Source of the DNA: Pectobacterium sp. A5351
GTDB taxonomy: Bacteria; Pseudomonadota; Gammaproteobacteria; Enterobacterales; Enterobacteriaceae
Length of the DNA stretch: 64,000 nt
Assembly: GCF_028335745.1 (NCBI RefSeq)
Contig: NZ_CP116477.1
Location: 620,001-684,000, forward strand
Reading direction: 5' to 3'
Shown: piece after piece, positions 32,680-41,165 of the stretch
Layout of the letters: every line of letters starts with the position of its first letter
How positions within the stretch are numbered: position 1 is the first letter of the stretch
Notes under the pieces: generated by a model
Database searches by the model: none
What the model saw: only the letters and a program-made list of their open reading frames with translations
Told to the model about the DNA's origin: nothing
Translations under genes and position numbers: made by a program

Positions 32680-33072
32680 ATGAGCAATGTACCAGCAGAA
32701 TTAAAATACACCACGTCGCATGAATGGGTATTGCACGAGGGCGGCGGTATCTACAGCGTGGGTATTACCGAGCACGCGCAGGAACTTTTGGGTGACATGG
32801 TTTTTATCGATTTACCTGAAGTGGGTACGGTCGTCGCCGCAGGCGATGACTGCGCAGTGGCGGAATCGGTAAAAGCGGCGTCGGATATTTATGCGCCCAT
32901 CAGCGGTGAGATCGTGGAAATCAACGAAGATCTGGAAAGCTCCCCTGAACTGGTCAACAGCGCGCCTTATGCCGATGGCTGGCTGTTCCGCATCAGAATT
33001 TCTGATGAGTCTGATTTAGACGAACTGCTTGATGCCGAAGCCTATCAGGCGTCGCTAGAAGAAGACGAGTAG
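32680..33072 (+). CDS. gcvH: Glycine cleavage system H protein
   Basis: Lipoyl carrier that shuttles the aminomethyl group between P, T and L proteins. 130 residues; the lipoylated Lys is in '[19 protein letters not shown]', preceded by '[21 protein letters not shown]'. AAAGGGGA ribosome site. A strong hairpin with T run lies directly after its stop, before gcvP. Confidence 0.98.
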
Positions 33073-33078
33073 TTATCG

Positions 33079-33110
33079 CGCCCCCGGTTTTGCTGAACCG
33101 GGGGCGTTTT
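33079..33110 (+). terminator. Terminator-like hairpin inside the operon, between gcvH and gcvP
   Basis: CGCCCCCGGTT, 6-base loop, AACCGGGGGCG, then TTTTGTTTT: an 11-bp GC-rich stem with T run that looks like a true intrinsic terminator or attenuator. It would lower gcvP transcription relative to gcvTH unless gcvP has its own promoter. Confidence 0.82.
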
Positions 33111-33150
33111 GTTTTATGCGCCCGCGTCGTCTTTCAGCGCGGCAGCGATC

Positions 33151-33195
33151 ACGATTGATGCGAGCACGATTAATGCAGGCACGATTGATCAAGGA
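33151..33195 (+). repeat. Three tandem 15-bp repeats before gcvP
   Basis: ACGATTGAT, ACGATTAAT and ACGATTGAT begin at 33151, 33166 and 33181, an exact 15-base period, with related spacers GCGAGC and GCAGGC. The last copy runs into the gcvP ribosome site AAGGAAAG. The period is a multiple of three, and the stretch is open in the gcvP frame, so it can be translated if an upstream start were used, but homology does not support that. Confidence 0.85.
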
Positions 33196-33205
33196 AAGTA
33201 CTGTA

Positions 33206-36076
33206 ATGACCCAGACACTCAGTCAACTCGAACATGACGGCGCGTTTATCGAGCGCCATATCGGCCCTTCCGTCAGCCAACAGCAGCACATGCTGTCGGT
33301 GGTGGGCGCAACGTCGCTGGACGCGCTGATCCGCCAGATTGTCCCGGTGGATATTCAATTGCCCAGCCCGCCAGCGGTAGGAGAGGCGGTGACGGAACAT
33401 GAAGCGTTAGCTGAACTGAAGGCCATTGCAGGACGCAATCAACGTTATAAAAGCTATATCGGTATGGGCTACAGCGCGGTGCTGATGCCACCGGTAATTT
33501 TGCGCAACGTGCTGGAAAATCCAGGCTGGTACACCGCCTATACGCCGTATCAGCCGGAAGTCTCTCAGGGGCGTCTTGAAGCGCTGCTGAATTTTCAGCA
33601 GGTCACACAGGATTTAACGGGTCTGGACTTGGCCTCCGCCTCGTTGCTAGATGAAGCGACCGCGGCGGCGGAAGCGATGGCGATGGCAAAACGCATCAGC
33701 AAACTCAAGCAGGCTGAGCGTTTCTTCGTTGCAGACGACGTGCATCCACAAACGCTGGATGTAGTGCGTACCCGCGCGGAAACCTTTGGTTTTGAGATTG
33801 TCGTCGGTAAAGCTGAAGAGGCGCTGAAAGACGATGCGGTGTTTGGCGTACTGCTGCAACAGGTGGGGACGACGGGCGAACTGCACGATTACAGCGACCT
33901 GATGGCCGCACTGAAAGCACGTAAGGTCGTCACCTGCGTGGCCTCGGACATCATGGCGCTGGTGCTGCTAACCGCGCCGGGCAAGCAAGGTGCAGACATT
34001 GTCTTCGGTTCCGCACAGCGCTTTGGCGTGCCGATGGGTTACGGCGGGCCACACGCGGCCTTCTTCGCCTGTCGCGACGAGCATAAACGTGCGATGCCGG
34101 GACGTATCATCGGCGTGTCGCGCGATGCGGCAGGCAATACTGCGCTGCGCATGGCGATGCAGACGCGTGAACAGCATATTCGCCGCGAGAAGGCGAATTC
34201 CAATATTTGTACCTCGCAGGTGCTGCTGGCCAATATTGCTGGGATGTACGCGGTATTCCACGGGCCGGAAGGGCTCAAACGTATTGCAGGACGCATCCAC
34301 CGTCTGACCGATATTCTGGCGGCGGGGTTAATGCAGGGTGGCCTGCTGTTGCGCCATCGCAGCTGGTTCGACACGCTGACCATTGAAGTTGCGGACAAAG
34401 ACGCAGTACTGAGTCGGGCATTAAGTTTTGGCATCAACCTCAGGGCTGATTTGGCAAGCGCCGTGGGCATCACGCTGGATGAAGCGACCACGCGTGAAGA
34501 CGTGCTGGCGCTGTTTGCGGTGTTGTTAGGTGACGATCACGGGTTGGATATCGAGGCGCTTGATGCGGCTGTTGGTCAGCAAGCTGCGACGATCCCTGCC
34601 GGGCTGGTACGTCACGACGCGATCCTGTCGCATCCGGTGTTCAACCGCTATCACAGTGAAACCGAGATGATGCGCTACCTGCACCGTCTGGCGCGTAAGG
34701 ATCTGGCGCTGAATCAGGCGATGATCCCGCTGGGTTCCTGCACCATGAAGCTCAACGCGGCGGCGGAAATGCTGCCGATTACCTGGCCGGAATTTGCCGA
34801 ACTGCATCCATTCTGTCCGCCGGAACAGGCGCTGGGTTATCGTCAGATGATCGAACAGCTATCGGGCTGGTTGGTTCAACTGACGGGCTATGACGCGATT
34901 TGTATGCAGCCCAATTCGGGTGCGCAGGGCGAATACGCGGGGCTGCTGGCGATCCGTCGCTATCATGAAAGCCGCAATGAAGCGGGTCGTCATTTCTGTC
35001 TGATTCCTAGCTCTGCCCACGGTACGAACCCGGCATCGGCGCAGATGGCGGGGATGGACGTGGTGGTGGTCGCCTGTGACAAGCAGGGCAATATCGATCT
35101 GCACGATCTGCGTGAGAAAGCGCAGGCAGCGGGCGAGCAGCTTTCCTGCATCATGGTGACCTATCCATCCACTCACGGCGTCTATGAAGAGACGATCCGC
35201 GAAGTGTGCCAGATCGTGCATCAATACGGCGGCCAGGTGTATCTGGACGGCGCGAACATGAACGCGCAGGTTGGTATTACGACGCCGGGCTACATTGGCG
35301 CAGATGTATCGCACCTGAACCTGCATAAAACCTTCTGTATTCCGCACGGCGGCGGCGGGCCGGGCATGGGGCCGATTGGCGTGAAAGCGCATCTGGCGCC
35401 GTTTGTACCGGGTCATCAGGTGGTAAAAATGGCTGGTGTATTGATGGAGCAGGGCGCGGTATCGGCGGCGCCGTTCGGTAGTGCTTCAATTCTGCCGATT
35501 AGCTGGATGTACATCCGCATGATGGGGGCGGAAGGGCTCAAACAGGCCAGCCAGATGGCGATCCTGAACGCCAACTACATTGCGACGCGCTTACAGCAGG
35601 CCTATCCGGTGCTTTACACTGGCCGTGACGGTCGCGTGGCGCACGAGTGCATTCTGGATATTCGTCCGCTCAAAGAGAGTACCGGCATTAGCGAGATGGA
35701 TATCGCCAAGCGCCTGATCGACTACGGTTTCCATGCGCCGACCATGTCGTTCCCAGTCGCGGGCACGCTGATGGTGGAGCCAACGGAATCGGAAAGTCAG
35801 GTAGAGATCGATCGCTTTGTCGACGCGATGCTGGCGATCCGTGCCGAAATCAACCGTGTTGCACAGGGCGAATGGCCGCTGGATGACAACCCGCTAGTGA
35901 ACGCGCCGCACACACAGACAGAGCTGGTGGCTGACTGGACGCATCCGTACAGCCGTGAGCTAGCAGTATTCCCTGCCGGCAGCGAACACAAATACTGGCC
36001 GAGCGTGAAGCGTCTGGACGACGTTTACGGTGACCGTAATCTGTTCTGCTCGTGTGTGCCGATGAGCGAGTATTAA
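33206..36076 (+). CDS. gcvP: Glycine dehydrogenase (decarboxylating), P protein
   Basis: Pyridoxal-phosphate enzyme that decarboxylates glycine and passes the aminomethyl group to lipoyl-GcvH. The start is ATG 33206 ([20 protein letters not shown]), as in E. coli; the frame is open 30 codons further upstream through a tandem repeat. 956 residues. The PLP lysine is in '[20 protein letters not shown]'; also '[17 protein letters not shown]' and '[17 protein letters not shown]'. Confidence 0.97.
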
Positions 36077-36096
36077 TAAGCTCGTTGTGAATATTG

Positions 36097-36135
36097 GCCT
36101 CGCATGTGTTTTAACGCATGCGAGGCTAAATTTAT
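36097..36135 (+). terminator. Terminator of gcvTHP
   Basis: Perfect 10-bp stem GCCTCGCATG / CATGCGAGGC with 10-base loop, followed by TAAATTTATTT. Confidence 0.8.
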
Positions 36136-36214
36136 TTGGTTCTGCGGAGAATTTTAAACTAATATCAGAAGTAGCTTTTGGTTTATTCAATCATTCCTCA
36201 ATATTCAGCATCTC

Positions 36215-36634
36215 TTATTTATAATAAGAGAGTGAATTAAGCTGTCTTTCATTGAGTGACTGAAATTTGCTTTCCGTTATTTTTATAATAGTGGGTAATA
36301 ACTTCTTAATTTTTTCATGACCATCTGGCTTAATAATCGCAATAACTTGAATATGTAGGGGATGAATATTGTGTATCGCAAACACCAAAAAGTTATCGCT
36401 TACTCTGTGGTGAAGAAGCTGTGATGCAGGCCACGGAGTATCTTCTCCTGGAATGCGAATGTGAGATTTATAAATCCCAGAAAGGGTAGATTGAGATGAG
36501 CGTTCAAAGCCACCCATTTTTCCAAGGTAAGCAGAGACTTTGCCGTTGTTTTTATAATTTGCTAACGCTTTAGCAAAGAAGTTTTCCAATTGACCAGCGG
36601 CGGCATCAACAAGAATGCTTACGCGGTTTTCCAT
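36215..36634 (-). CDS. Putative YafO-family toxin (ribosome-dependent mRNA interferase)
   Basis: 139 residues. From residue 27 on the pattern follows E. coli YafO as I remember it: 'YKNNG' (27-31) for YKRDG, a 'SHIRIP...TPWP' block (57-69) for AHIHLANENNPFP, 'DNFLVFAIHN' (80-89) for the strand HLVYCQG, and 'IAIIKPDGH' (98-106) for IAILKPEPH, then a basic C-terminal helix. YafO cleaves translated mRNA on the 50S subunit. The start is ATG 36634 behind GGAG, overlapping the upstream gene by 16 bases, which implies translational coupling. Local sequence is AT-rich compared with the gcv and transporter genes on either side. The family call comes from pattern memory, not a search. A toxin without its usual YafN partner is unusual. 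Confidence 0.6.
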   Translation of the reverse strand: MENRVSILVDAAAGQLENFFAKALANYKNNGKVSAYLGKMGGFERSSQSTLSGIYKSHIRIPGEDTPWPASQLLHHRVSDNFLVFAIHNIHPLHIQVIAIIKPDGHEKIKKLLPTIIKITESKFQSLNERQLNSLSYYK

Positions 36635-37218
36635 GTTGGCGGCTCCATGCCAAGTCTTTTGTGACTGTCTTCAACTGACTTCTTGAAAGCTGCTAATTCT
36701 TCATCACTAAATTCTTCTGCTTCCTCATGCTCAAGAGGAATAAATTGAGCGCCGAGAGTGGCTACGCCCATTGTCAGCTTCTTATATTCAATGAACGTGT
36801 TGATCGCGTGGTTTTTCATTGTCATAAGCGTGGCGAGATGTGGCAACCAGGCTTTGTTATTTTCGGCAACAAAGAAGGTATAAAGAAGCCTCGTTATGCC
36901 ATGATCTATCTGATTGGCCTGATCGTTTAGCTTGTCGATGTCACTGAGATGAATGTCTAGTGCTGCAATGTCCTCATCGGTTCCATTGCTAAGGGTATCG
37001 ATAAACGCTTTATATTTTTCACAGTTTTTTTCAACGGGTGCCATGACGTTGTAGATGACTTTCAGTGCATCGGCGGCTTGTTTTTTGGAGATAGAACCCC
37101 TGTGACTTCTGTCAAAGTCAGATATGGATCGCTCAATAGGCTGAGACACGTTATTGAAAACGCTCTCTATCTTATCCGGCCCTTGGTTGACGATAGCCAT
37201 AGCTTCAAGCCCTAGCAT
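36619..37218 (-). CDS. Unknown 199-residue partner, candidate atypical antitoxin
   Basis: No family recognised. The sequence looks all-helical: 'ISKKQAADALKVIYNVMAPVEKNCEKYKAF', 'DIHLSDIDKLNDQANQIDHGITRLLYTFFV' and 'TLMTMKNHAINTFIEYKKLT' are amphipathic helix candidates, with an acidic tail 'EHEEAEEFSDEELAAF'. It lacks a Phd/YafN-type N-terminal DNA-binding fold and is twice the length of YafN. ATG 37218 follows AAGGAATC. It is first in the operon and overlaps the YafO-like gene by 16 bases, the antitoxin-then-toxin order usual for type II systems. That it neutralises the toxin is an inference from this layout. Confidence 0.6.
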   Translation of the reverse strand: MLGLEAMAIVNQGPDKIESVFNNVSQPIERSISDFDRSHRGSISKKQAADALKVIYNVMAPVEKNCEKYKAFIDTLSNGTDEDIAALDIHLSDIDKLNDQANQIDHGITRLLYTFFVAENNKAWLPHLATLMTMKNHAINTFIEYKKLTMGVATLGAQFIPLEHEEAEEFSDEELAAFKKSVEDSHKRLGMEPPTWKTA

Positions 37219-37373
37219 GATTGATTCCTTATAATTTTACAGGTTAAAAATGATACAGCAAAGTTAAACACTCTTCCCAGCCGTATTTTTAGTAACTTCG
37301 AGCCTTCCCGCAAATCGTCTGCCAACGTAGAGATAAATCCTTCGCGTGCATATTTTCCCTATCCGAAAACAAA

Positions 37374-37402
37374 CTGTCATTAAACTGACGCCCCACTGAC
37401 AC
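37374..37402 (+). promoter_or_regulatory. Putative PhoB box (three 11-bp direct repeat units)
   Basis: CTGTCAT, CTGACGC and CTGACAC start at 37374, 37385 and 37396, an exact 11-base period, the spacing of PhoB half-sites (consensus CTGTCAT plus four bases). The first unit is perfect and the others keep CTGnC. It lies 54-82 bases before the first transporter gene. A possible -10 is TAGGGT at 37413-37418. PhoB control fits an operon for organic phosphate uptake. Confidence 0.6.
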
Positions 37403-37455
37403 GCTAGCGTTCTAGGGTAAGGCCTCTGTGTTTCACACTGAGCGGCCTTTGAGTT

Positions 37456-38328
37456 ATGCGTGCAAAATGCTTTCCCTATCTTGTGCTGTTGCCGACGCTG
37501 GTTTTTTTGCTTGCCTTCACCTATTTCCCCCTGCTGCGCTCGGTTATCGACAGCCTGTATGACACCCGACTGAATGCCGATACGCCGCTGTTCGTCGGGA
37601 TGGATAATTTTGTGCGTCTGGTGCAGGACGCGGTGTTCTGGCAGGCCTTGCTGAACAACATGCTGTATATCCTGATGACGGTGGTGCCCGGCGTGCTGCT
37701 GGCGCTGTTGCTCGCGGTGCTGCTGTGGGAAAACACACGCGTTAACCGCTGGCTGCGTACTGCTTTCTTCTTTCCGATGATTATTCCGCTGGTGAGCGCC
37801 GCAACGCTGTGGCTATTCATCTTTATGCCGGGGCTGGGGCTGCTGGATTACTATCTGGCGAAGGTGTTCGGCCCGATGAACAACAACTATCTCGGCATGA
37901 GCGACAGCGCGCTGGTGGCAGTGAGCGTCATCGGTATCTGGAAATTCGCCGGTTACTACATGCTGTTTTTTCTCGCTGGTCTGCAAGCCGTTTCTGCTTC
38001 CGCCCGTGAGGCAGCACTGATGGAAGGCGCTTCACAGCGTCAGGTATTTTTCTACGTTACGTTGCCGCTACTGCGGCCAACCATCGCTTTTGTGGTCACT
38101 ATCGCCTTTATCTACGCCATTACCCAGATCGACCATGTCGCCGTGATGACGCGCGGCGGGCCGAATAACGCGACGACTGTGCTGCTCTATTACATCCAGG
38201 ATCTGGCGAATGATACGCACGATCTGGGCAAAGCCTCCGCGGCCACCTTCCTGACGCTGGCGATGCTATTCGTCTTTTCCATGATGAATCTGAAAGTGCT
38301 GGAGAAGGGGGCACATTATGAGCGCTGA
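37456..38328 (+). CDS. ABC transporter permease, UgpA/MalF type
   Basis: Inner-membrane permease of 290 residues with about six membrane spans beginning at residue 5 ('YLVLLPTLVFLLAFTYFPLL'). The permease EAA loop that docks on the ATPase is 'SAREAALMEGASQRQVFFYVTLPLLRP'. The start at ATG 37456 has no evident ribosome site and sits just after a hairpin (AAGGCC 37419-37424 / GGCCTT 37444-37449). It overlaps the next permease by 11 bases. Five genes (permease, permease, gpdQ, ATPase, binding protein) form one operon. Confidence 0.9.
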   Translation: MRAKCFPYLVLLPTLVFLLAFTYFPLLRSVIDSLYDTRLNADTPLFVGMDNFVRLVQDAVFWQALLNNMLYILMTVVPGVLLALLLAVLLWENTRVNRWLRTAFFFPMIIPLVSAATLWLFIFMPGLGLLDYYLAKVFGPMNNNYLGMSDSALVAVSVIGIWKFAGYYMLFFLAGLQAVSASAREAALMEGASQRQVFFYVTLPLLRPTIAFVVTIAFIYAITQIDHVAVMTRGGPNNATTVLLYYIQDLANDTHDLGKASAATFLTLAMLFVFSMMNLKVLEKGAHYER

Positions 38329-39217
38329 AAATCAGATCGTTGATGTTCAGAACGTGAAAAGTCCACGCATTGAAAGCCGAAGCGTGATCAACCCGCTTCG
38401 TATCACGACGCGTTTCACGCTGCCGCTGCTGCTGATTTGCGCCGCGTTACTGTGGGTCAGCCCGTTTATCTGGATGCTGTCTGCATCCGTTAGCACCAGC
38501 AGCTTCGGCGTGGACATGGCTTCACTGCTGCCGCGTCTCCCGCTCACGCTCGATAACTTCCGCGAGGCGTGGGACAGCGCTAACTGGCTACAGCTTTATA
38601 CCAATACGCTGATTTTTGCGGTCGGCACGTTTCTGGTGCAACTGGTGACGATCACCACGGCGGGCTACATCTTTGCCTATCACGAATTTCGCGGCAAAAC
38701 GCTGCTGTTTTACCTGTTGCTGATTCAACTGATGATCATGCCCGTCGTCATGATGGTGCCAAACATGATGACGCTCAAACAGCTCGGCCTGCTCAATACC
38801 CTGACTGGTGTGATGATGCCGTATTTCGCCTCGGCGTTTGGCGTGTTTTTGATGCGTCAGGCATTTCTCAATATTGCCAAAGAGATCGAAGAAGCCGCGT
38901 TGATGGAGGGCTGCCGCTGGTGGCAGGTGGTGTTCCACGTCCTGATCCCGATGACCTGGCCGTCGATTCTGGCTTTCGCCACGGTCAGCATTACTTATCA
39001 CTGGAACGAATATCTCTGGCCGCTGATGGTGCTCAACGACCCCGACAAACAGGTGCTGACCATCGGGCTGGTGTCGTTCGCTATGGGCGCGGAGTCCGGC
39101 GGGCAGTGGGGATTGATCTGCGCCGGTACACTGCTGGTGTGCTTGCCGTTGATGGTGGCTTTCGTGTTGTTCCAGAAGCAGTTCCTGAGCAGCTTCGGCT
39201 TCTCGGGCATTAAGTGA
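38318..39217 (+). CDS. ABC transporter permease, UgpE/MalG type
   Basis: Second permease, 299 residues, with a cytoplasmic N-terminal 30 residues, about six spans, and EAA loop 'IAKEIEEAALMEGCRWWQVVFHVLIPMTWP'. It ends 'QKQFLSSFGFSGIK', typical of MalG-family permeases. It starts within the previous gene (11-base overlap), so translation is coupled. A 35-base gap separates it from gpdQ. Confidence 0.92.
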   Translation: MSAENQIVDVQNVKSPRIESRSVINPLRITTRFTLPLLLICAALLWVSPFIWMLSASVSTSSFGVDMASLLPRLPLTLDNFREAWDSANWLQLYTNTLIFAVGTFLVQLVTITTAGYIFAYHEFRGKTLLFYLLLIQLMIMPVVMMVPNMMTLKQLGLLNTLTGVMMPYFASAFGVFLMRQAFLNIAKEIEEAALMEGCRWWQVVFHVLIPMTWPSILAFATVSITYHWNEYLWPLMVLNDPDKQVLTIGLVSFAMGAESGGQWGLICAGTLLVCLPLMVAFVLFQKQFLSSFGFSGIK

Positions 39218-39252
39218 ATCGCCAACGGGCTAAATAACGATGAGGTGGTTGT

Positions 39253-40077
39253 ATGTTGCTGGCACAGATTTCCGATCTGCATTTTCGCAGTGAGGGACGC
39301 AAGCTCTATGAATTTATTGATATTAACGGGGAAAATGCCAAAGTCATTAATCAGCTCAACGCGCTGAGCGAGCGGCCGGACGCGGTAGTGATTAGCGGCG
39401 ATATCGTCAACTGCGGCAGTCCGCAGGAGTATCAGGTGGCACAACGTGTGTTACAGATGCTGGATTACCCGATGTACGTGATTCCGGGTAATCACGATGA
39501 CAAGCAGCATTTCCTCAACACGATGCGTCCGCTTTGTCCGCAATTGGGCGATGATCCTGAGAACATCCGCTATGCCGTAGATGATTTCCCGATGCGCCTG
39601 CTGTTCATTGACACCAGTCTGGCCGGACAGGCGAAAGGCTGGCTGACGCCGTCCACGCTGGGCTGGTTAGAGCAACAATTGCAGGATTATGCCACGCGTG
39701 AAACGGCGATCTTTATGCACCATCCACCGCTTCCTTTGGGATCGGCACACATGGATCGGATCGCCTGCGAAAACGGGAGCGAGCTGCTGACGCTGATCGA
39801 ACGTTTCCCGCAGCTTACGCGGATCTTCTGCGGTCATACGCACCGTTTGATTATGACGCAGCATCGGCAGGCGATTATTGCCACGGTGCCGGGCACTGTC
39901 CATCAGGTGCCGTATTTCTACTATGACGACACGTCGTACTACAACCTGGAACCCGCCAGCGTAGTCATGCACCGCTATGTGCCGGTCACCGGGCTGGTCA
40001 GCTACAGCCAGTCGATCGCCTCGAACTCGGGGCCTTACCTCTATGATCCGCGTATCAGCTGTCCGGTGGATGCGTAA
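39253..40077 (+). CDS. gpdQ: Glycerophosphodiesterase GpdQ (binuclear metallophosphoesterase)
   Basis: Hydrolyses glycerophosphodiesters such as glycerophosphocholine and glycerophosphoethanolamine to glycerol-3-phosphate plus alcohol. 274 residues, the length of the characterised Enterobacter aerogenes GpdQ, and all metal ligands known there are at the same positions: Asp8 and His10 ('ISDLHF'), Asp50 ('SGDIVNCG'), Asn80 ('PGNHDD'), His156 ('MHHPPLP'), and His195 and His197 ('CGHTHR'). No signal peptide, so cytoplasmic. Its place inside an ABC uptake operon says the substrate is imported whole and then cleaved. Its stop overlaps the ATPase start (TAATG). Confidence 0.93.
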
Positions 40078-41165
40078 TGGCCGTGATTCAACTACGAAAT
40101 ATCAGCAAACGCTTTGAGCACACGCAGGCGCTGGCATCGCTGTCGCTGGATATCGCTGATGGCGAATTTCTGGTGCTGGTCGGGCCGTCCGGCTGTGGCA
40201 AAAGTACGCTGCTGCGTATGCTGGCCGGATTGGAAGATGTCAGCGACGGACAAATCTTGCTGGGTGATGACGACATTACGACATGGAGCCCGAAGCAGCG
40301 TAATTTCTCGATGATTTTCCAGAACTATGCGTTGTTTCCGCACCTGACGGTCGAGCAGAACATCACGTTCGGGATGCGGATGCGCGGTGAGCCGAAAGCG
40401 GACTATCCACAGCGTGTGCAGCGCGTTGCCAGCCTGCTTCAGCTTGAGCCACTGCTGAAACGCAAACCGGGAAAACTGTCCGGCGGTCAGCGGCAGCGTG
40501 TGGCGATGGCGCGGGCGATCGTACGCGATCCGCATTTATTTCTGATGGATGAGCCGCTATCGAATCTCGATGCCCGTCTGCGCAGCGATGTGCGGGACGG
40601 CATTATGGATCTGCATCGGCAGTTGAAAACAACCACCGTTTACGTCACGCACGATCAGATCGAAGCGATGACGATGGCGGACAGAATCGCCGTGCTCGAT
40701 CGTGGCGTGCTGCAACAGGTTGGCACGCCGGAGCAGCTGTATTCTCACCCGGCTAACGTCTTTGTCGCCGGATTTATCGGCACACCCGCGATGAATATGG
40801 TGATGCTGCCTTGTGCTGATGGGCAGGCATTTCTACAGGCATTGTCCGTGGCGCTGCCCGTCAGTGAAGAAACGCGTTCATTAACCAGTGTGCTGCTCGG
40901 GATCCGCCCTGAGCATATTACCGAACACGCCGCGTCAGACGGCGACTTGTCATTGTCGGGAACGGTGAAGCAACGGGAGCTATTTGGTGCGGAGTATCTG
41001 ATCCATGTGGATACGCCGTTGGGAAATATTCGCTACCGTCGGCCCAATCGCGATGGCGTGCCGGATGTCGGCGCACCCATTGTGCTTCATTTTTCACCGC
41101 AGGATTGTCATTGGTTTTCCGGGCAAACCGCCCGTAATTTATCCCAGGAGAAAAGAAATGCGTAA
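40077..41165 (+). CDS. ABC transporter ATPase, UgpC/MalK type
   Basis: 362 residues. Walker A 'GPSGCGKSTLLRMLAGLE', Q-loop 'MIFQNYALFPHLTVEQNI', signature 'LSGGQRQRVAMARAIVRDP', Walker B 'LFLMDEPLSNLDARLR', H-loop 'VTHDQIEAM'. The C-terminal part is the MalK-type TOBE regulatory domain ('LGIRPEHITE', 'VKQRELFGAEYLIHV'). Its start overlaps the gpdQ stop by one base; its end overlaps the binding-protein gene by 8 bases. Confidence 0.95.
   Translation: MAVIQLRNISKRFEHTQALASLSLDIADGEFLVLVGPSGCGKSTLLRMLAGLEDVSDGQILLGDDDITTWSPKQRNFSMIFQNYALFPHLTVEQNITFGMRMRGEPKADYPQRVQRVASLLQLEPLLKRKPGKLSGGQRQRVAMARAIVRDPHLFLMDEPLSNLDARLRSDVRDGIMDLHRQLKTTTVYVTHDQIEAMTMADRIAVLDRGVLQQVGTPEQLYSHPANVFVAGFIGTPAMNMVMLPCADGQAFLQALSVALPVSEETRSLTSVLLGIRPEHITEHAASDGDLSLSGTVKQRELFGAEYLIHVDTPLGNIRYRRPNRDGVPDVGAPIVLHFSPQDCHWFSGQTARNLSQEKRNA

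Follow-up and report, generated by a model that had tools for sequence, protein, structure and literature searches.

What keeps a YafO-family toxin in check when the gene in front of it is not yafN? The question is raised by a 64,000-nucleotide stretch of the Pectobacterium sp. A5351 genome (NZ_CP116477.1; hereafter the window), in which two overlapping genes on the minus strand encode a 199-residue helical protein (36619-37218) and, behind it, a 139-residue toxin (36215-36634). The pair is real, conserved, and phage-spread, and the toxin belongs to a known family. We consider it probable that the two genes form a phage-spread type II toxin-antitoxin module with a helical antitoxin in place of YafN, and we infer that the 199-residue partner is this antitoxin because of the gene order, the overlap, and the strict pairing with a toxin of the ribonuclease (RNase) type.

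The two open reading frames (ORFs), their antitoxin-first order, and a 16-base overlap had been noted in a sequence-only reading of this DNA, and both ORFs were confirmed. According to their coordinates, the overlap spans 36619-36634 on the minus strand, and the toxin start codon falls within the final codons of the 199-residue gene. The identical 16-base overlap is present in eight Pectobacterium copies, in phage CUS-3, at the loci L036-L039, and in Escherichia coli NU14, which suggests translational coupling of partner and toxin. The AT-rich composition noted earlier is also borne out, with GC contents of 37.6% for the toxin gene and 44.2% for the partner gene, compared with 53.1% for the whole window.

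The downstream product had been called YafO-like, and a profile search now supports this assignment: residues 26-121 match PF13957 (YafO_toxin) with an E-value of 2.9e-13 and 50.2 bits, where 25 would suffice. The NCBI YafO equivalog model demands 153 bits, of which the toxin attains just 22, so within the family it is divergent. Eight of the ten strongly conserved PF13957 columns are identical in the toxin and the other two carry minority residues; the protein also matches the phage family phrog_1651 (107.7 bits), has an isoelectric point (pI) of 9.62, and shares 18% identity in the alignment with the canonical YafO encoded elsewhere in the same genome (L001). The AlphaFold model has a predicted local distance difference test score (pLDDT) of 93.2, and the VIA list obtained with it is headed by RelE/HigB/YoeB-type entries, of which there are many on the list, so the predicted fold is that of the RelE superfamily (the barnase-EndoU-colicin E5/D-RelE, or BECR, fold). 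No RelE-type entry was among the 50 Foldseek matches listed, and VIA used the same candidates. A sequence search of the PDB gave no match for YafO.

The 199-residue partner is a protein without a family name outside phage collections: scans of Pfam, NCBIfam, and PADLOC gave nothing significant (lowest values 0.012 in Pfam and 0.16 in NCBIfam), and nearly the whole protein, residues 3-199 of 199, fits phrog_18235, a family of phage proteins, with 310.8 bits. Weaker profile matches to phrog_1014 (0.0026), phrog_19403 ('head protein', 0.009), and Pfam Ric8 (0.012) were judged to be due to chance. The protein had been described as seemingly wholly helical with an acidic tail, in agreement with an AlphaFold model that contains helices only (mean pLDDT 81.4, predicted template modelling score 0.69) and with a pI of 5.15 that falls to 4.63 in the final 50 residues. 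With this model, Foldseek returned no match at an E-value of 0.001 or better, neither in the PDB nor in the viral library, where A0A346G3T0 and A0A248SJE7, two entries without protein names, reached a probability of 1.00 and template modelling scores of 0.49-0.60. The five matches of a PDB sequence search (E 0.03-0.66) were not convincing. The Pfam, NCBIfam, and PADLOC scans showed no DNA-binding family, and there was no significant fold match either.

As the partner has no family name, it is a better probe for the module than the toxin, and we therefore collected loci with the partner and its relatives, adding one to which the toxin had led initially. At 28 of 28 distinct loci, the partner is immediately followed by a YafO-type frame; these loci lie in eight Pectobacterium genomes, phage CUS-3, the Flyfo siphovirus (reached through the toxin and also through a partner relative), a phage-like plasmid of S. 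flexneri, and 17 viral contigs, 4 of them from the first search and 13 obtained via two distant partner relatives. Because some viral contigs are near-copies of one another, the number of independent cases is below 28. Two adjacent, co-directed genes that are inherited together, as in type II toxin-antitoxin modules, were thus seen at every locus; the sequence-only reading had named a lack of such co-occurrence, like a lack of a significant YafO match, as a refuting result, neither was observed, and the mobile history that it suggested fits the presence of the same pair in phages, a phage-like plasmid, and viral contigs. Among 5,426 E. coli genomes, the CUS-3-type pair is found in 44, with both genes in each of the 20 rows listed, and the S. 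flexneri plasmid-type pair in 37, with both genes in all of them. A module unique to the source genome is ruled out by CUS-3, Flyfo, the S. flexneri plasmid, the 17 viral contigs, and these two E. coli sets.

Named relatives with 85-91% identity to the partner are from Pectobacterium, and distant partners share 13-28% identity with it in the alignment, which contains five invariant columns, among them P194 and W196 near the C-terminus. At those distant loci that were read, the toxin gene adjoins. The window partner was not found in plasmids nor, as a single-sequence query, in viral contigs; the Flyfo partner was not found in viral contigs, and the L040 pair was not found in E. coli genomes. 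Against 394 genomes of the order, the partner alignment recovered the window and one 19-bit match within a 1420-residue frame, which we take as chance. One viral contig (L048:4962-5573) has a partner split between frames next to an intact toxin, due to either a sequencing error or real loss, and a 206-residue relative (P0038) has IERSISDFDRSHSGSISK like the window's subgroup and diverges elsewhere, perhaps as a mosaic.

Could the helical protein be something other than an antitoxin? It might be an accessory phage (moron) protein, for example a membrane-associated one, with the toxin held otherwise (e.g., by RNA) or inactive. The modules of Flyfo, the S. flexneri plasmid, and HK639 indeed lie among tail or baseplate genes, long YafO partners of another type begin like signal peptides, and the N-terminus of the Flyfo-type subgroup is hydrophobic (best 12-residue mean hydropathy 1.55-2.23). 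Against this stand the pairing at 28 of 28 loci, including a chromosomal site at which no phage gene was recognised by eye within 33000-41000, and the antitoxin-first order with overlap, and we regard this explanation as unlikely. It is hardly credible that the partner descends from the YafN/Phd family as a remote and rebuilt member. Its gene position and order are those of YafN, but the partner has no match to PF02604 (PhdYeFM) and so differs from the Phd/YefM-type antitoxin of yafNO, its model consists of helices only, and hhalign gives a probability of 0.2% against the YafN-like protein of the same genome. By contrast, all nine YafN-like genes that we found upstream of other YafO proteins match PF02604 at E 0.03 or better (three of them over the cut-off). 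The earlier statement that the upstream protein is not YafN therefore holds.

It is also very improbable that what Pectobacterium carries is a functionless prophage relic in decay. The pair is absent from 17 of 25 genomes, and one of the eight copies, that of PL152 (L006:6585-7004), has an in-frame stop in the toxin next to an intact partner; L006, L011, and L063 are one and the same PL152 copy. Against decay, both frames are intact in the window, and in 28 pairwise comparisons of the eight copies the partner had a median ratio of nonsynonymous to synonymous changes (dN/dS), by a simple Nei-Gojobori count, of 0.16, with values of 0.10-0.56, and the toxin had a median of 0.08, with values of 0.02-0.27. 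Both genes are under purifying selection in Pectobacterium, and the low ratios indicate that both proteins are kept.

How would a module with such a helical antitoxin work? According to the available text of PMC2814082, E. coli YafO cuts translated mRNA and halts growth by this RNase activity, and the accessible part of a later study doubts its strict ribosome dependence (PMC8546651). By analogy with E. coli YafO, the downstream product, a member of the YafO family with a predicted RelE-superfamily fold, would act as an RNase and stop growth by mRNA cutting, and the upstream product, an acidic helix-bundle protein, would most likely bind and silence it. The partner would be translated before the toxin because the toxin start lies within the partner's last codons, so the antitoxin would be made ahead of its target. 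As it has no recognised DNA-binding domain, it is probably not a repressor of the operon, a role that antitoxins of the YafN type can have; among type II antitoxins in general, such autorepression is frequent though not universal. Loss or degradation of the partner would release the toxin for mRNA cutting, and the benefit may lie in stability of the element or in defence. The partner is a good candidate for an antitoxin of a new type.

In the chromosome, the neighbours of the pair are a gcvP-like ORF at 33116-36076 and, on the other side, an ORF for an ABC-type permease at 37456-38328; these names were given by eye from the translations. The gcvP stretch is present in all 25 Pectobacterium genomes examined, and the pair, where present (8 of 25), is always on the 3' side of gcvP. 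Inspected by eye, 16 of the 17 genomes without the pair have another ORF of at least 60 residues at this site, and in the remaining one (L073) the permease directly follows gcvP. This side of gcvP is variable (L055-L078), with acetyltransferase-like, short-chain dehydrogenase-like, and other genes in other Pectobacterium genomes, again named by eye. Neither an integrase nor a phage gene was seen among the ORFs inspected by eye within 33000-41000. A strong terminator-like hairpin of 16 pairs directly follows gcvP (36094-36129). The 5' flank of the partner gene (37219-37268, minus strand) is nearly unchanged in the alignment of the eight Pectobacterium copies and contains a candidate ribosome site and promoter that were read by eye and are absent from the list of the promoter scan, which was near chance (4 found versus a shuffled mean of 2.9).

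Is the exchange of YafN for another partner peculiar to this lineage? YafO-family members were sought in genome samples of three groups. They turned up in 16 of 394 genomes from the order, in 5 of 369 from the class (one of these being the window's genome again), and in 13 of 140 from a further family, perhaps Pasteurellaceae, whose genomes mostly have 1.8-2.7 million bases; this gave 34 distinct places. The gene upstream of YafO was YafN-like at 9 of them, of the window's type at 1, of another long type at 18, and a short ORF at 6, with the other long partners (about 150-220 residues) and the short ORFs (53-82 residues) assigned by length and by eye. The 18 other-long cases include several near-copies, and L087, which has a broken partner frame, was counted as a near-equal of L027. 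Ten other long partners, four phage proteins and one Klebsiella phage protein included, had no Pfam match at E 0.02 or better, and two of the short upstream ORFs had none at E 0.1. The short basic ORFs directly upstream of YafO (L026:1179-1358, L030:1198-1395, L031:1265-1426, L034:1152-1331, L088:1140-1388, and L090:1197-1394) are possibly a further partner type; in L030, L088, and L090 they end alike, in a motif resembling MTIDDLM..MGI. Two canonical-type YafO matches with an internal stop (L017 and L018) lie beside intact YafN-like genes.

Many other-long partners begin with a charged and then hydrophobic stretch, which, judged by hydropathy, resembles a signal peptide (L023, L028, L029, L079-L084, L086, L089, L093, L094, and L096, the last three from phages). 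Near the start, the highest mean hydropathy over 12 residues was 1.1-2.5 in 18 of 19 long partners and 0.8 in the nineteenth, a count in which the start had been moved to an internal methionine in 7 of the 19, favouring the signal-like reading; the window partner has 1.07. Such starts are surprising in a protein that would counter a cytoplasmic RNase. We read six phage regions that carry the other long type, three from Pseudomonas, two from Escherichia, and one from Klebsiella. In HK639, this type follows the tape measure gene and one for a lipoprotein, and in the Flyfo siphovirus the window's type follows the tape measure, at the matching place.

In a tree of 43 YafO proteins, selected by hand and with near-copies dropped, the 11 toxins whose partner is of the window's type cluster together (99/92), and closest to them are eight whose partner is of the other long type (88/83). 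Five terminal branches of this tree are long, and support for the YafN group is weak (37/25). The four partner classes require 6 changes on this tree versus a shuffled mean of 21.1, which, together with the grouping, indicates that partner and toxin lineages move together, with a few swaps. Single comparisons of the window partner with the other long type gave hhalign probabilities of 0.4, 1.0, and 0.1%. Group against group, the probability was 5.9% with P 0.0064, a score reached by none of 60 column shuffles and not by the reversed profile, and subgroups of the two types compared alone gave 0.1-1.4%. Two subsets of the other long type gave 11.8% and 1.4% against each other, and the window type's two subgroups gave 88%. 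The weak signal between the two long types could be explained by helical periodicity. We offer, as a rather doubtful proposal, that YafO toxins swap partners among YafN, at least one and perhaps two unrelated long antitoxin types, and a short-peptide type, that they are spread mainly by phages, and that, with one long type being signal-like, the toxin may be checked at the membrane and freed by export or membrane disturbance, as in phage attack.

Some of this has left traces in the literature. In the part of an E. coli survey that was available, YafO_toxin is given with 6 toxin clusters, 13 partner clusters, and a proportion known of 0.08, so that unmatched YafO partners had already been counted there, without description (PMC10790755). 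The accessible text of Pectobacterium papers mentions prophage YafO, yafN/yafO, or YafO/YafM pairs (PMC6192338, PMC10991766), and for P. parmentieri it gives a prophage YafO, a YafN only on a plasmid, and no evidence of mutual complementation (PMC6192338). Within the open-access literature, which leaves most subscription papers and all preprints outside its scope, we found no paper describing the 199-residue partner. The claim of an undescribed module thus stands for the partner protein within this scope and not for the pair, which is present in the CUS-3 record (CP000711), nor for unmatched YafO partners as such, which the available part of PMC10790755 tallies. Annotation commonly treats YafO as one half of yafNO, so a copy with a different partner looks orphaned. 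Should the helical protein be an antitoxin, several unrelated antidotes would have been recruited by a single RNase family, the nameless YafO neighbours of many phages and prophages could be tested, and the signal-like partners would pose the sharp question of where such toxins are held.

Among known systems, modules of the RelE/HigB/YoeB superfamily resemble the pair in the predicted toxin fold. Their antitoxins as a rule carry Phd, helix-turn-helix, ribbon-helix-helix, or similar DNA-binding domains, whereas no DNA-binding domain was recognised in the window partner. The pair shares a YafO-family toxin, the antitoxin-first order, and a short overlap with yafN-yafO of E. coli, a canonical-type copy of which is also present elsewhere in the same genome (L001), but its partner is helical, has 199 residues, and shows no detectable kinship to the 97-residue Phd-type YafN. 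Escherichia phage PhiR40_1 likewise has a YafO toxin, encoded after a long protein of 179 residues (L094:222-761), which differs in its signal-like start and belongs to the group with the above hhalign probability of 5.9% to the window type; the phage records PhiR40_1 and PhiR55_1 name a YafO, and the depositor of PhiR40_1 labelled its partner 'YafM antitoxin', a protein on which no paper was found. The pair ECRS218_0007/0008 of CUS-3 differs in its phage location beside mnt-type regulator genes and is annotated as hypothetical proteins only, but it is the same pair (phrog_18235 and phrog_1651), with 65.3% and 74.1% identity and the same 16-base overlap.
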